Shown here piece after piece: positions 17,095 through 20,834 of a stretch of 40,150 nucleotides of DNA. Below the pieces are notes generated by a model, which was not told where the DNA came from, made no database searches, and saw only the letters and a list, made by a program, of their open reading frames with translations. Every line of letters starts with the position of its first letter. The first letter of the stretch is position 1. The stretch is from a virus. The position numbers and the translations under genes are program-made. The DNA is taken from the IMG/VR virus record IMGVR_UViG_3300005613_000161, positions 1 through 40,150 of that record; one strand, given 5' to 3'.

Positions 17095-17285
17095 TGTTTA
17101 CAAGCATACCTGCAGCAATCGAAGAGGCGAGATTCCTCCGCGCTCTAACCGGCAGATGTCATGGAGTGGTCCAGCGTCCCGGCGGAAACATGGTCGTTAG
17201 GGTAATCGACAGGCGCGGCATGCATACGTTGTTCACCACAAAACAAGACCGTCACGGAACGGTTAAGACGGAGGGCATATCGTGA
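17094..17285 (+). CDS. Hypothetical 63-residue protein between ninG and Q
   Basis: The product is basic with several short strands (CHGVVQRPGGNMVVRVIDRRGMHTLFTTKQDRHG). It overlaps ninG by one base and the GTG start of Q by 4 bp, which supports translation. I do not recognise a family; it does not look like lambda NinH, which has a helix-turn-helix. Confidence 0.6.
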   Translation: MFTSIPAAIEEARFLRALTGRCHGVVQRPGGNMVVRVIDRRGMHTLFTTKQDRHGTVKTEGIS

Positions 17286-17773
17286 ACATCAGTAAATTTG
17301 AGTTGGACGATGAGCAGCACCAGTGGGTAAATGGCTGGCTTGAGCTGTGGGGCGCATGGGTTTATACGGGGCGACTCGAGCGACGCATGAGCAACATGAT
17401 CGCCAAATTCATGGAAAGCGTAGAGCCAAGCAAGAATCCAAGTAGGCCAATGTGCAATGACGATGATGGAATGTTGATTTCTCAGGTCGTAGATTCCGTC
17501 ATGTTTATCGACAAGAAGGCCTTTGGCATCCTGCTCAGCTACTACGCTCATGGTACATCCAAGCGAGCCATTGCATCTTACTATCACGCGACTGCAAAAC
17601 CCCGCAAGATTAACCGGGGTAGATTAGGAGAAGGGTGGCGAAAGCCGTCAGAGGAAACATGCCGCAAAGAAGTGGCTGAAATCCTCAAAGCGAGCTTGTA
17701 TATGCTCTATGCTCCGATGGTAAATGCGTTCAACAGTCGCAAACGTGTAGAGAAAATTAAGCATGTTGCATAG
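17282..17773 (+). CDS. Q: Q-type late antitermination protein
   Basis: A 163-residue protein beginning at GTG 17282 (MNISKFELDDEQHQWVNGWLELWGAWVYTGRLE). The pattern, with later ILLSYYAHGTSKRAIASYYHA and a C-terminal helix CRKEVAEILKASLYML, fits the lambdoid Q proteins of the DUF1133/phage-82-like type. It should bind at PR' and let polymerase pass tR' into the late operon. The gene is the last of the PR operon and lies 7 bp from the promoter it acts on. Confidence 0.85.
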   Translation: MNISKFELDDEQHQWVNGWLELWGAWVYTGRLERRMSNMIAKFMESVEPSKNPSRPMCNDDDGMLISQVVDSVMFIDKKAFGILLSYYAHGTSKRAIASYYHATAKPRKINRGRLGEGWRKPSEETCRKEVAEILKASLYMLYAPMVNAFNSRKRVEKIKHVA

Positions 17774-17780
17774 ATAATGC

Positions 17781-17810
17781 TTGACTTTGTTTTACCTATT
17801 TACCCATAAT
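17781..17810 (+). promoter_or_regulatory. Late promoter PR'
   Basis: TTGACT (17781-17786), 18-bp spacer and CATAAT (17805-17810), starting a few bases after the Q stop. A terminator follows within 50 bp, the standard PR'-tR' layout in lambdoid phages. The qut element that Q recognises should overlap this segment. Confidence 0.82.
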
Positions 17811-17820
17811 AGTGACATAA

Positions 17821-17861
17821 GCTGCCGTTAGTGACTCTTAAGTTGCTGCGGCGGCTTTTTT
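17821..17861 (+). terminator. tR' terminator
   Basis: GCTGCCG (17821-17827) pairs with CGGCGGC (17849-17855), one G-U pair, with a 21-nt loop, followed by six T. Without Q, PR' transcripts would end here after about 45 nt. Confidence 0.82.
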
Positions 17862-18200: not shown

Positions 18201-18527
18201 ATGCTCAAATTACCTGAGCTCGTCCGGGCTGGTTTCGTGAGTTCGTCTCCTTGGTTGCTGGGCTTAATTCTCCTTTCTTATCTCGCTGCAGAGGTTAATT
18301 CGAGGATTAACTCGGCGGCCTACGCGTACCCGCGATCTGTCGTTTCATATGGCCTCGCAAGCGCAAAGACCGATGATGAAGTTATCTCCACTGTTGAACT
18401 GTGGAAGAAGGATGCTTGGGGCGCTCAAATCGGCGCTCTCCGTGTTCTCTGTGATAACGACCGTGCATTCGTTGACTCGCTCGGCGGGGAGAGTGTAGGG
18501 GCTAGAGTATGCAGGATCGTCAAATGA
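18201..18527 (+). CDS. Small membrane protein at the start of the lysis module
   Basis: 108 residues with one hydrophobic segment (SPWLLGLILLSYLAAEV, about 16-32) and a soluble C-terminal part (SYGLASAKTDDEVISTVELWKKDAWG...). It overlaps the holin start by ATGA and opens the late operon with AAGGAA upstream. The position suggests a role in lysis timing, such as an antiholin or accessory holin, but I recognise no family. Confidence 0.65.
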   Translation: MLKLPELVRAGFVSSSPWLLGLILLSYLAAEVNSRINSAAYAYPRSVVSYGLASAKTDDEVISTVELWKKDAWGAQIGALRVLCDNDRAFVDSLGGESVGARVCRIVK

Positions 18528-18856
18528 ATGAACGTGACCCTGGATTCTGGGCCGACGTTCTGAACGGCCTTAAAAACGCATGGCCGCAAATTCTTGGTTC
18601 AATGATGGCCGGGTTAATTTGCTATGGCCGATTAATTTACGATGGTGTAGAGCGAAAGAATCGCTGGATTGAGGGCGTCCTATGTGGCGCCCTTTCTCTT
18701 TGCATCTCCAGTGCTCTGGATGTGTTCGGGTTGCCGGTAAGCATGTCTCCTTTCATTGGTGGCATGGTTGGATTCATCGGTGTCGAAAAGCTCCGCAATA
18801 TCGCCATCAGCGCTATCAGCAAGCGAGTAGGTGCTAGCGATGAAAATCAGCAATAA
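18524..18856 (+). CDS. Holin
   Basis: 110 residues starting MNERDPGFWADVLNGLKNAWPQILGSMMAGLICYG. Hydrophobic segments at about 22-37, 55-73 and 76-92 (IEGVLCGALSLCISSALDVFG, PFIGGMVGFIGV) give two to three membrane spans in the pattern of the phage holin 3/lambda-like family. It overlaps the endolysin start by 17 bp. It should form membrane lesions that release the cytoplasmic lysozyme. Confidence 0.85.
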   Translation: MNERDPGFWADVLNGLKNAWPQILGSMMAGLICYGRLIYDGVERKNRWIEGVLCGALSLCISSALDVFGLPVSMSPFIGGMVGFIGVEKLRNIAISAISKRVGASDENQQ

Positions 18857-19274
18857 CGGTATCGACTTCCTGAAGCGCCAAGAGGGTGAAAAACTCTCTG
18901 CCTACAAAGATACACGCGGTATCCCCACGATCGGCGTCGGTCATACTGGCCTGGTTGATGGCAAGCCTGTTGCAATGGGTATGACTATCTCGAAAGAGAA
19001 ATCATCCGATCTGCTGCGCTTTGACCTGCAGTGGACTGAGCGAGCTATCAATTCGGCGAATATCACGCTGAACCAGAACCAATACGATGCTCTTTGCAGT
19101 CTGGTGTTCAACATCGGTGCATCAGCATTCAATGGCTCGACACTGCTCAGAAAACTCAAGGCTGGCGATTATACTGGTGCTGCAGATCAGTTCCTGGCAT
19201 GGAAACGAGCAGGCAACGATCCGGATATTCTTCTTCCTCGCAGGCAGCGTGAACGCTCGCTGTTTCTGTCATGA
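18840..19274 (+). CDS. Endolysin, T4-type lysozyme
   Basis: A 144-residue muramidase of glycoside hydrolase family 24. The catalytic triad has exact family spacing: E15 (RQEGE), D24 (AYKD) and T30 (IPTIGVGHT), i.e. E-8-D-5-T. There is no signal or SAR segment at the N-terminus ([12 protein letters not shown]), so it depends on the holin. The C-terminal [14 protein letters not shown] is typical of RrrD/P22 gp19 relatives. Start 18840 is preferred over 18831 because the family begins at this Met. Confidence 0.95.
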
Positions 19275-19738
19275 ACAGGCTAACAGCAATCGCCATTGGC
19301 CTTATCGCTTGCCTGATAGTTTCGTTGGGATGGGCGGTCAACCATTACCGAGATAACGCTACCGAATACAAGCGTCAGCGCGATGAGAAAACCAATGCGC
19401 TGAATCAGGCCCGCACTACCATCACTGATATGGAAACCAGGAAGCGCGATGTTGCCGCGCTGGATGCCAAATACACCCAGGAGTTAGCGGATGCAAAAGC
19501 TAAAAATGATGCTCTGCAGCGCAAGCTTGATAATGGTGGTCGGGTGCTCGTCAAAGGCAAGTGTTCTATGCCCGCCACAACCGAAACCGCCAGCTCCTCC
19601 GGCATGGGCGATGATGGCACCATCGAACTCTCTTCAACTGCTGGACGAAACTTTCTCGGTATCAGATCCGGGATCGTCAGTGACCAAACAGCACTGAAAG
19701 CGCTGCAGGAATACATCAACACGCAGTGCCTGAAATAA
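19271..19738 (+). CDS. Rz: Inner-membrane spanin subunit Rz
   Basis: 155 residues with an N-terminal membrane anchor ([20 protein letters not shown]) and a periplasmic coiled coil ([40 protein letters not shown]). It overlaps the endolysin stop by 4 bp. With the nested Rz1 it spans the periplasm to fuse the membranes in the last step of lysis. Confidence 0.9.
19491..19697 (+). CDS. Rz1: Outer-membrane spanin lipoprotein Rz1, nested in Rz
   Basis: A 68-residue frame wholly inside Rz in a different frame. It has a signal sequence ending in a lipobox VVGC (C19) and then a proline-rich mature part ([15 protein letters not shown]). This embedded organisation is that of lambda and P22 Rz1. Starts at residues 6 or 7 ([10 protein letters not shown]) are also possible. 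Confidence 0.85.
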
Positions 19739-19749
19739 CAGGGGGAATA

Positions 19750-19998
19750 ATGAGTGAAGCTAAGCCGCAAGATGGCAGCACTGTAACGGGATATCGTGAG
19801 CTGTCATTTGGCGAAATCGGGAAGATGAACCAATTCAAAGATATCAGCCGCCAATTCATCAAACTTCTGCGGGAGCATTTTGGCGATGTCCGGAGCGATT
19901 GGGAAGCAGTGGAGTGGGCTCGCCAGGCTGAGATGGATATGAAGCGAGCTTGTATGGCCGCTTGCCGGTCCGTGGCGAAGCCGGATGCTGATTGCTAA
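19750..19998 (+). CDS. Acb2/Tad1-like small protein, candidate cyclic-nucleotide sponge
   Basis: 82 residues from ATG 19750 (GGGGG four bases upstream). The pattern TGYRELSFGEIGKMNQFK, then an acidic linker, W51-E-A-V-E-W-A-R, and a last helix with CRSVAKP resembles the Acb2/Tad1 hairpin-domain family. Acb2 proteins bind the cyclic di- and trinucleotides of CBASS immunity. From memory, key Acb2 residues are a Tyr and a Lys 15 positions apart and an Arg before the C-terminal V-A-x-P; here Y15, K30 and R73 are placed alike. It lies between spanins and packaging genes. Confidence 0.65.
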   Translation: MSEAKPQDGSTVTGYRELSFGEIGKMNQFKDISRQFIKLLREHFGDVRSDWEAVEWARQAEMDMKRACMAACRSVAKPDADC

Positions 19999-20071
19999 TC
20001 ACTTCGCTATTACAGAAGCCATTCTCTGAGTGGCTTCGATAATGGCTTTTACCAAACAACTGGAGCCAATC

Positions 20072-20308
20072 ATGGCAATTACAGAAATGACCGAAGAGCA
20101 GGCAATGAACCTCGAAGTGTTCAAACTGGTTCAGAGCGATACCGCTGCAGGTGAGAAGGCAATCACTTTCATCGGTGGCAACAAGCTCAAGCACGAGCTG
20201 TTCAAAGATGCCTATACGCGCGTGCAAACAGAACCCGGTGTCGTCGGTCGTGTAGATAAGGCCATTAAGATGGCTGAAGAAGCGCTCGGCCTTTTTACTG
20301 GAGTATGA
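20072..20308 (+). CDS. DUF2560 protein
   Basis: A 78-residue protein starting MAITEMTEEQAMNLEVFKLV and containing TEPGVVGRVDKAIKMAEEAL, which matches my memory of the DUF2560 family from P22-like phages. It is fully helical and soluble. ATG 20072 has TGGAG seven bases upstream; the frame opens earlier at 20030 without a ribosome site. A hairpin GAAGCCA/TGGCTTC (20015-20037) lies in the short gap before it. Function unknown. Confidence 0.75.
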   Translation: MAITEMTEEQAMNLEVFKLVQSDTAAGEKAITFIGGNKLKHELFKDAYTRVQTEPGVVGRVDKAIKMAEEALGLFTGV

Positions 20309-20309
20309 C

Positions 20310-20834
20310 ATGACCACAGTTGCATGGGACGGCAAGACTTTGGCATCCGACTCCCAGGCATCAACTGGCGATGTCGTTTGCTCAAAGACAGAGCAGAAGA
20401 TATATGAAGCACCATCATCAGAATGGCACGTATATGGCGAAAAGGTGCTTGCCATTGGTTGCTCTGGGGATTGCGGTGCAGAGATGGAGTTGCAAGACCT
20501 ATTGTCTAATGGTCTGAATTACTCAACTGAGTTCCTTCCCACTTTCGGCTTCTCATCGATCGCAATCATCGGCGTCGGCCGAGCCTACATCATCAGCAAA
20601 GATAAAGGCGAGACTAGAGCCAATATTTCCCTGCAGATTGAGCCATACGCGATTGGGTCTGGAGGTCTAATTGCTAGAACTGCTATGCGATGCGGTAAAG
20701 ACGCTCGCTCTGCGGTTCAGGTAGCAATAGAGATGGATTGCTATTCAGGAGGTAATGTCGATTCATTCTCTATCAATCAGCCAATATTCATCGTTGTGGA
20801 GAGAGTAAATGCCACTGAAGAAAGGCAAGTCTAA
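20310..20834 (+). CDS. HslV/proteasome-like Ntn hydrolase
   Basis: 174 residues starting [18 protein letters not shown]. After removal of Met the Thr would be the N-terminal nucleophile; D14 and K30 (EQKIYE) are 16 residues apart, as D17 and K33 are in proteasome subunits. The IGSGG motif (115-119) followed by [23 protein letters not shown] and YSGGNVDSF is the HslV core. No unfoldase is encoded nearby. Such proteins occur in several tailed phages with unclear roles; capsid or host protein turnover is conceivable. It begins 2 bp after the DUF2560 stop. Confidence 0.8.

Follow-up and report, generated by a model that had tools for sequence, protein, structure and literature searches.

An acb2-type gene with an altered second helix in a variable late-operon slot of a P22-like phage

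Introduction

Between the lysis genes and the terminase genes of a P22-like phage lies a gene for a protein of 82 residues, which raises the question of what such a protein does for the phage and why it is encoded at this place. A preliminary description, made from the sequence, had placed the gene between lysis and packaging and proposed a candidate sponge against CBASS; the position holds, a spanin gene lying on one side and, past DUF2560, terminase genes on the other. The window, that is the whole stretch of DNA analysed (40,150 nucleotides), is the complete IMG/VR virus record IMGVR_UViG_3300005613_000161. It encodes a P22-type portal, Terminase_3, NinG, antiterminator Q and a lambdoid lysis cassette, and among named phages it stands closest to Lederbergvirus and the HK620/Sf6-like group. 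A search of 5,426 E. coli genomes found none with a near copy over 80% of its length.

The gene and its neighbours

The ATG of the acb2-type gene lies 11 bases past the Rz stop (at 19738). The features of the region are the following.

17282 to 17773, plus strand: antiterminator Q, upstream regulator of the late operon (PF06530, E 1.1e-25)
17781 to 17857, plus strand: candidate late promoter PR' (TTGACT-18-CATAAT) and short terminator tR', directly 3' of Q (consensus scan only)
18509 to 18856, plus strand: holin (PF05106)
18840 to 19274, plus strand: endolysin, a phage lysozyme (PF00959)
19271 to 19738, plus strand: Rz spanin with embedded Rz1 (PF03245, E 2.9e-30; phrog_13), left edge of the exchange slot
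19740 to 19745, plus strand: strong ribosome-binding site AGGGGG, read from the sequence, 4 bases ahead of the acb2-type ATG
19750 to 19998, plus strand: acb2-type gene, 82 amino acids, ATG at 19750 and TAA at 19998, encoding MSEAKPQDGSTVTGYRELSFGEIGKMNQFKDISRQFIKLLREHFGDVRSDWEAVEWARQAEMDMKRACMAACRSVAKPDADC
residues 14 to 77 of this protein: Acb2/Tad1 hairpin domain (Pfam PF24729)
20072 to 20308, plus strand: DUF2560 gene (PF10834, E 3.1e-25), right edge of the exchange slot

An HslV-like peptidase family gene (phrog_1040) is present at 20310-20834, between DUF2560 and the terminase genes. Late expression of the acb2-type gene is plausible, since a promoter-like and a terminator-like site come immediately after Q, although in the consensus scan promoter-like sites in this stretch are no more numerous than expected by chance.

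Family and predicted fold

The family proposed in the preliminary description is borne out by a profile search, in which the protein matches PF24729 (Acb2/Tad1 hairpin) with 37.7 bits against a curated Pfam cut-off of 27 (E 2.3e-9), and the motifs quoted there (TGYREL, IxxMNxxK and CRSVAKP) are all present. The protein also matches PHROG 717 (E 2.8e-19), to which Jenson et al. assigned T4 Vs.4, i.e., Acb2 (PMC10097602). Solved Acb2 is found by a single-sequence search (E 4e-6), and a family profile of 32 rows finds Pseudomonas-phage Acb2 8h2j/8ixz with E 2.4e-14 and T4 Acb2 7uq2 with E 2.6e-9; hhalign gives 98.6% to PaMx43 ORF24. Pfam has no match of the window protein to PF13876 (Acb4) or PF11195 (Tad2) at E up to 1. 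In IMG/VR, 329 relatives were found. Membership of the protein in the Acb2 family of cyclic-oligonucleotide sponges is well supported. The assignment itself is not new, as RefSeq already labels E. coli relatives 'Acb2/Tad1 domain-containing protein'; the points of interest beyond it are the altered face of helix 2 and the shared exchange slot.

The predicted monomer model (m95d837e7208a; pLDDT 84.8, 54 of 82 residues at pLDDT >=90) has helices at residues 20-46 and 51-76 and no strands, and the helical protein foreseen earlier is in this model a bare two-helix hairpin. The top seven Foldseek matches are all Acb2 chains (probability 1.00). A second aligner gives T4 Acb2 7uq2 as best match (Z 9.4, 2.2 A over 73 residues), followed by 8h2x/8h2j (Z 8.3), but Z values of about 8-9 are common for helical hairpins and not decisive alone, so that the sequence evidence bears the weight.

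Dinucleotide pocket and interface

In T4 Acb2, Y8 and F82 stack on cGAMP, polar contacts are made by Y8, H11, K23, and R79, and the hexamer is packed through A66, A73, and A77 (PMC10097602). Conservation of the corresponding residues was counted over 273 distinct domains of relatives, aligned.

19792 to 19794, plus strand: codon of Y15, equivalent of T4 Acb2 Tyr8 (cGAMP stacking and hydrogen bond); Y in 264/273 domains
19837 to 19839, plus strand: codon of K30, equivalent of T4 Acb2 Lys23; K in 271/273 domains
19966 to 19968, plus strand: codon of R73, equivalent of T4 Acb2 Arg79; R in 273/273 domains

The Tyr and Lys spaced by 15 residues and the Arg near the end, which had been named as nucleotide-binding residues, are these three, and all map to cGAMP contacts of the T4 protein (Y8, K23, and R79; PMC10097602). 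T4 F82 and H11 align with A76 and L18, which are the usual family residues outside T4-like phages and the same as in Pseudomonas-phage Acb2. The small interface residues are kept (A60, A67, and A71 for T4 A66, A73, and A77). By its residues, the dinucleotide pocket of the window protein looks intact.

Altered face of helix 2

A second stripe of residues on helix 2 departs from that of most relatives.

19912 to 19944, plus strand: altered helix-2 stripe, codons 55 to 65 (E55, R58, M62, K65); most relatives have R, A/S, T, and Q

In the window, positions 55, 58, 62, and 65 carry E-R-M-K, against R-A/S-T-Q in roughly two thirds of the family; the R-(A/S)-T-Q stripe (R67, A70, T74, and Q77 in PaP2) is thus missing from the window protein. 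Its absence marks a subgroup and not the limits of the family, T4 Acb2 being also without the arginine. From helical periodicity, the four positions are expected to lie on the same side of helix 2 as R73, facing away from the alanine interface.

R55 is found in 188/273 domains, and E/D55 in 17/17 rows of the window's clade. R/K58 accompanies E/D55 in 51 of 54 cases, and T62 gives way to M, F, L, or K. In a tree built without columns 55, 58, 62, and 65, the 17 E/D55 rows closest to the window group as a single clade (SH-aLRT 98), nested among R55 rows, and T4-like Acb2 has lost the same arginine separately. An independent-pairs test for co-change of the four positions had too few events for significance. 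Position 55 corresponds to R67 of Pseudomonas-phage Acb2, the presumed cyclic-trinucleotide residue. M62 aligns with T4 T68, the site of T68M in the T4-like phage Bas35, a change described as lowering affinity in the legend of Extended Data Fig. 7 of PMC12657230. On a conservative reading, the protein would be a dinucleotide sponge whose range may be altered.

Selection and terminal tails

Against close relatives, the acb2-type gene has dN/dS of 0.16-0.29, and against the next ring of relatives dN of 0.06-0.14 with saturated synonymous sites. The gene is under strong purifying selection, and the coding is real. The C-terminal half is itself under purifying selection, so the altered stripe is not decay. 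The N-terminal tail MSEAKPQDGSTV (window 19750-19785) is predicted to be disordered. It is almost invariant as protein although its synonymous sites are near saturation, and because of this conservation at the protein level the tail probably has a role. The C-terminal PDxDC is likewise conserved. Gene copies shortened by early stops occur in two phage contigs (L050 and L065), and acb2 of PaMx41 is likewise known in truncated form.

The slot between Rz and DUF2560

The slot that the acb2-type gene occupies is bounded by Rz and, ahead of DUF2560, by a covarying hairpin. In Lederbergvirus 611R6 and 683R2 and in a prophage of E. coli C41, DUF2560 is preceded by a very similar hairpin, but the gene in front of this hairpin belongs to PF13876, the Acb4 family (PMC11722364); a profile of these slot genes finds solved Acb4 9e4w (E 4.5e-5). 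Scanning IMG/VR for the hairpin gave at least 119 contigs, and slot contents were counted on 84 of them in which an Rz was recognised and on the window, 85 in all. Among the matches listed, an Acb4-family gene is found in 43/85 and a Tad2-like gene in 5/85 (in three of the five beside an Acb4-family gene), Acb2 is found in the window only, and the other slots contain KilA-N, Rha or T5orf172 genes or are nearly empty. Slot Tad2-like genes match PF11195 with 77 bits and solved Tad2 with E 2e-26. Within slot loci, 61/61 Acb4-family and 7/7 Tad2-like matches lie at most 1.7 kb from the hairpin, and none elsewhere. In the P22-like prophages of loci L427 (7050-9163), L468, and L483, Rz and a Tad2-like gene of PF11195, whose product is extended N-terminally by about 75 residues, stand before DUF2560, and in L427 an Acb4-family gene is side by side with the Tad2-like one.

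The variability of the slot is solid. Its reading as a slot for sponges is suggestive only, because the alleles of Acb4 stand close to one another, the contigs were selected with a single hairpin sequence, and genes other than sponges occupy the slot as well. A literature search found no account of an Acb2/Acb4/Tad2 slot, which is not proof of absence. The wider proposal that the window's clade is an Acb2 of re-tuned range, still binding dinucleotides, in a late-operon slot of P22-like phages passed through by the three unrelated families Acb2, Acb4, and Tad2 must be called unlikely at present. If true, a single cassette swap would change the set of alarm nucleotides that a phage can mop up. 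Further sponges may be sought among the genes that lie between Rz and DUF2560 in prophages related to this one.

Beyond this slot, relatives of the acb2-type gene follow unrelated lysis cassettes in HK639, 716R3, and loci L003, L009, L024, L037, and L317, and lie outside lysis regions in Sortsne and IME279. For these comparisons synteny was anchored on PHROGs, because a comparison based on similarity to the Rz of the window overlooks spanins of other types. Two further loci are of note. In Kosakonia phage Kc259 (L089, 420-1211), a protein of 263 residues adjoining the terminase genes carries a C-terminal Acb2 hairpin (180-258) behind about 175 residues with no Pfam match, and is a possible Acb2 fusion. 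In E. coli NRZ96052a (L374, 2675-5281), an Acb2/Tad1 gene follows Rz, and a gene annotated as anti-CBASS Acb1 family lies beyond TerL in the same prophage. A SMODS (CD-NTase) domain was found in only 2 of 19 bacterial genomes with relatives, giving no signal of co-occurrence or enrichment.

The hairpin element

The right part of the slot carries a structured element.

20005 to 20048, plus strand: conserved hairpin directly 3' of the acb2-type gene, with outer stem, 2x2 internal loop CA/GA, and covarying inner stem

The hairpin has dG of -23.6 kcal/mol (z -6.7). Among 23 distinct copies, 95.7% of cells are paired, neither the outer ATTA/TAAT nor the internal loop varies, and double changes occur in 10/17 pairs; double-change cells number 76 against 25 expected from shuffling, and a shifted register destroys the signal. 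The hairpin is a real structure. Its model R1 has a sole match in the window (57.8 bits), and Rfam gave no family at cut-off. About 110 distinct copies are present in the examined loci (e.g., L372 3063-3109 and L427 8207-8862), at a median of 4 bases past a stop codon. As a pattern, invariant ATTACA...ATAATG encloses a variable inner stem and follows the stops of late or accessory genes in many Enterobacterales phages. The hairpin stands 3' of acb2 in 69/245 loci of the enterobacterial groups and in 0/112 of Pseudomonas type or T4 type. Host genomes carry it 0-9 times, after diverse small late genes. The idea that it marks counter-defence genes was rejected, since small late genes of other kinds, Rz1-like and DUF2560-like ones among them, also precede it in the bacterial-genome sample. 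The hairpin is a general late-gene end element, perhaps a site of RNase III or 3'-end processing, or else a boundary for exchange.

Proposed function and alternatives

Family membership, fold, pocket residues, selection, and the place in the late operon are the results on which the interpretation rests: the gene probably encodes an Acb2-type sponge, made late with the lysis genes and countering CBASS. Against this weigh the departures of E55 and M62 from most of the family and the scarcity of SMODS domains in bacterial genomes with relatives. For the window protein we infer a hexamer, nucleotide binding, and an anti-CBASS effect. The protein would be made from the Q-dependent operon alongside the lysis genes, and its 82-residue hairpins would assemble into hexamers, in which protomer pairs (Y15, K30, R73) would bind cyclic dinucleotides without cutting them, so that CBASS effectors would be kept off until the phage bursts the cell. 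The gene itself is a mobile accessory gene of the slot between Rz and the hairpin, where relatives carry Acb4-family or Tad2-like sponge genes. The locus thereby places a well-supported candidate anti-CBASS sponge in a temperate P22-like lineage of Enterobacterales.

A refinement of this explanation is an Acb2 with changed ligand range, in which the dinucleotide pocket is retained but the rebuilt stripe of helix 2 would no longer bind cyclic trinucleotides, or the decoy nucleotides of Panoptes, as Pseudomonas-phage Acb2 does. It is tentative, and we regard it as somewhat doubtful. The acidic residue 55 throughout the window's well-supported clade, the basic residue 58 that goes with it, the replacement of T62, the separate loss of the arginine in T4-like Acb2, and the purifying selection on the C-terminal half all speak for it. 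However, the change in the window's clade is a single event, and the refinement presumes a trinucleotide role for R67 of the Pseudomonas-phage protein. T4 Acb2, with D at the R67 site, moreover binds cGAMP with a Kd of about 31 nM (PMC10097602), so the arginine is perhaps dispensable for dinucleotides. In its favour, the Panoptes authors suggest that Acb2 specificity could be tuned by phages (PMC12657218). Relatives with R55 and relatives with E55 form a ready protein set for asking what the second Acb2 stripe recognises, and also whether its tuning lets phages escape Panoptes.

That the same substitutions, M62 and E55, have spoiled the pocket and left an inactive fossil is improbable; M62 matches the affinity-lowering T68M of Bas35 as the legend in PMC12657230 gives it, and truncated copies exist in L050 and L065, but the dN/dS and dN values given above and the intact reading frames of nearly all relatives argue against it. 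Still less probable is a Tad1-like sponge of gcADPR directed against Thoeris. PF24729 does span the hairpin of both Acb2 and Tad1, yet the protein has 82 residues with helices 20-46 and 51-76 only, and its sequence and structure matches are all Acb2. Because the model lacks an N-terminal beta domain, the type is Acb2 rather than Tad1, and of the earlier label 'Acb2/Tad1-like' the first half is retained and the second dropped. The least probable alternative is a helper of lysis or packaging, suggested by the place between spanin and terminase and by the position after a spanin gene in many phages; against it, relatives fill the slot with unrelated genes (PF13876, Tad2-like, KilA-N, Rha, T5orf172) or leave it nearly empty, and in Sortsne and IME279 relatives of the gene lie outside lysis regions.

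Comparison with known systems

The Acb2-type sponge proposed here resembles several known proteins in different respects. Pseudomonas-phage Acb2 (PaMx33/43, PaP2 p26; PDB 8h2j, 8h2x, 8ixz) has 32% identity to the window protein and shares with it the hairpin, the GYR.L....MN..K start, the terminal R and P, the Tyr-Lys spacing, and Ala at the position of T4 F82. It differs in having R67, T74, and Q77 where the window has E55, M62, and K65; the loop between the helices is shorter in the window protein and the N-terminal tail 4 residues longer. Pseudomonas-phage acb2 adjoins a structural gene, whereas the window gene is linked to lysis.

T4 Acb2 (Vs.4; 7uq2) has 28% identity. Its Y8, K23, R79, A66, A73, and A77 are kept in the window protein, and both proteins are acidic at the R67 site and have Lys at position 65, but T4 F82, H11, and T68 are A76, L18, and M62 in the window.

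HK639_72 of HK639 (54% identity) and the 'Acb2/Tad1' genes of E. coli prophages belong to the same family and have the MSEAKPQDG.TV tail, the PDxDC end, and the post-spanin place in common with the window gene, but they retain R55, T62, and Q65 and have a longer loop. Acb4 (PF13876) and Tad2 (PF11195) share with the window gene the slot from Rz to DUF2560 in related prophages; they are of unrelated families and folds, and are not homologous to it.
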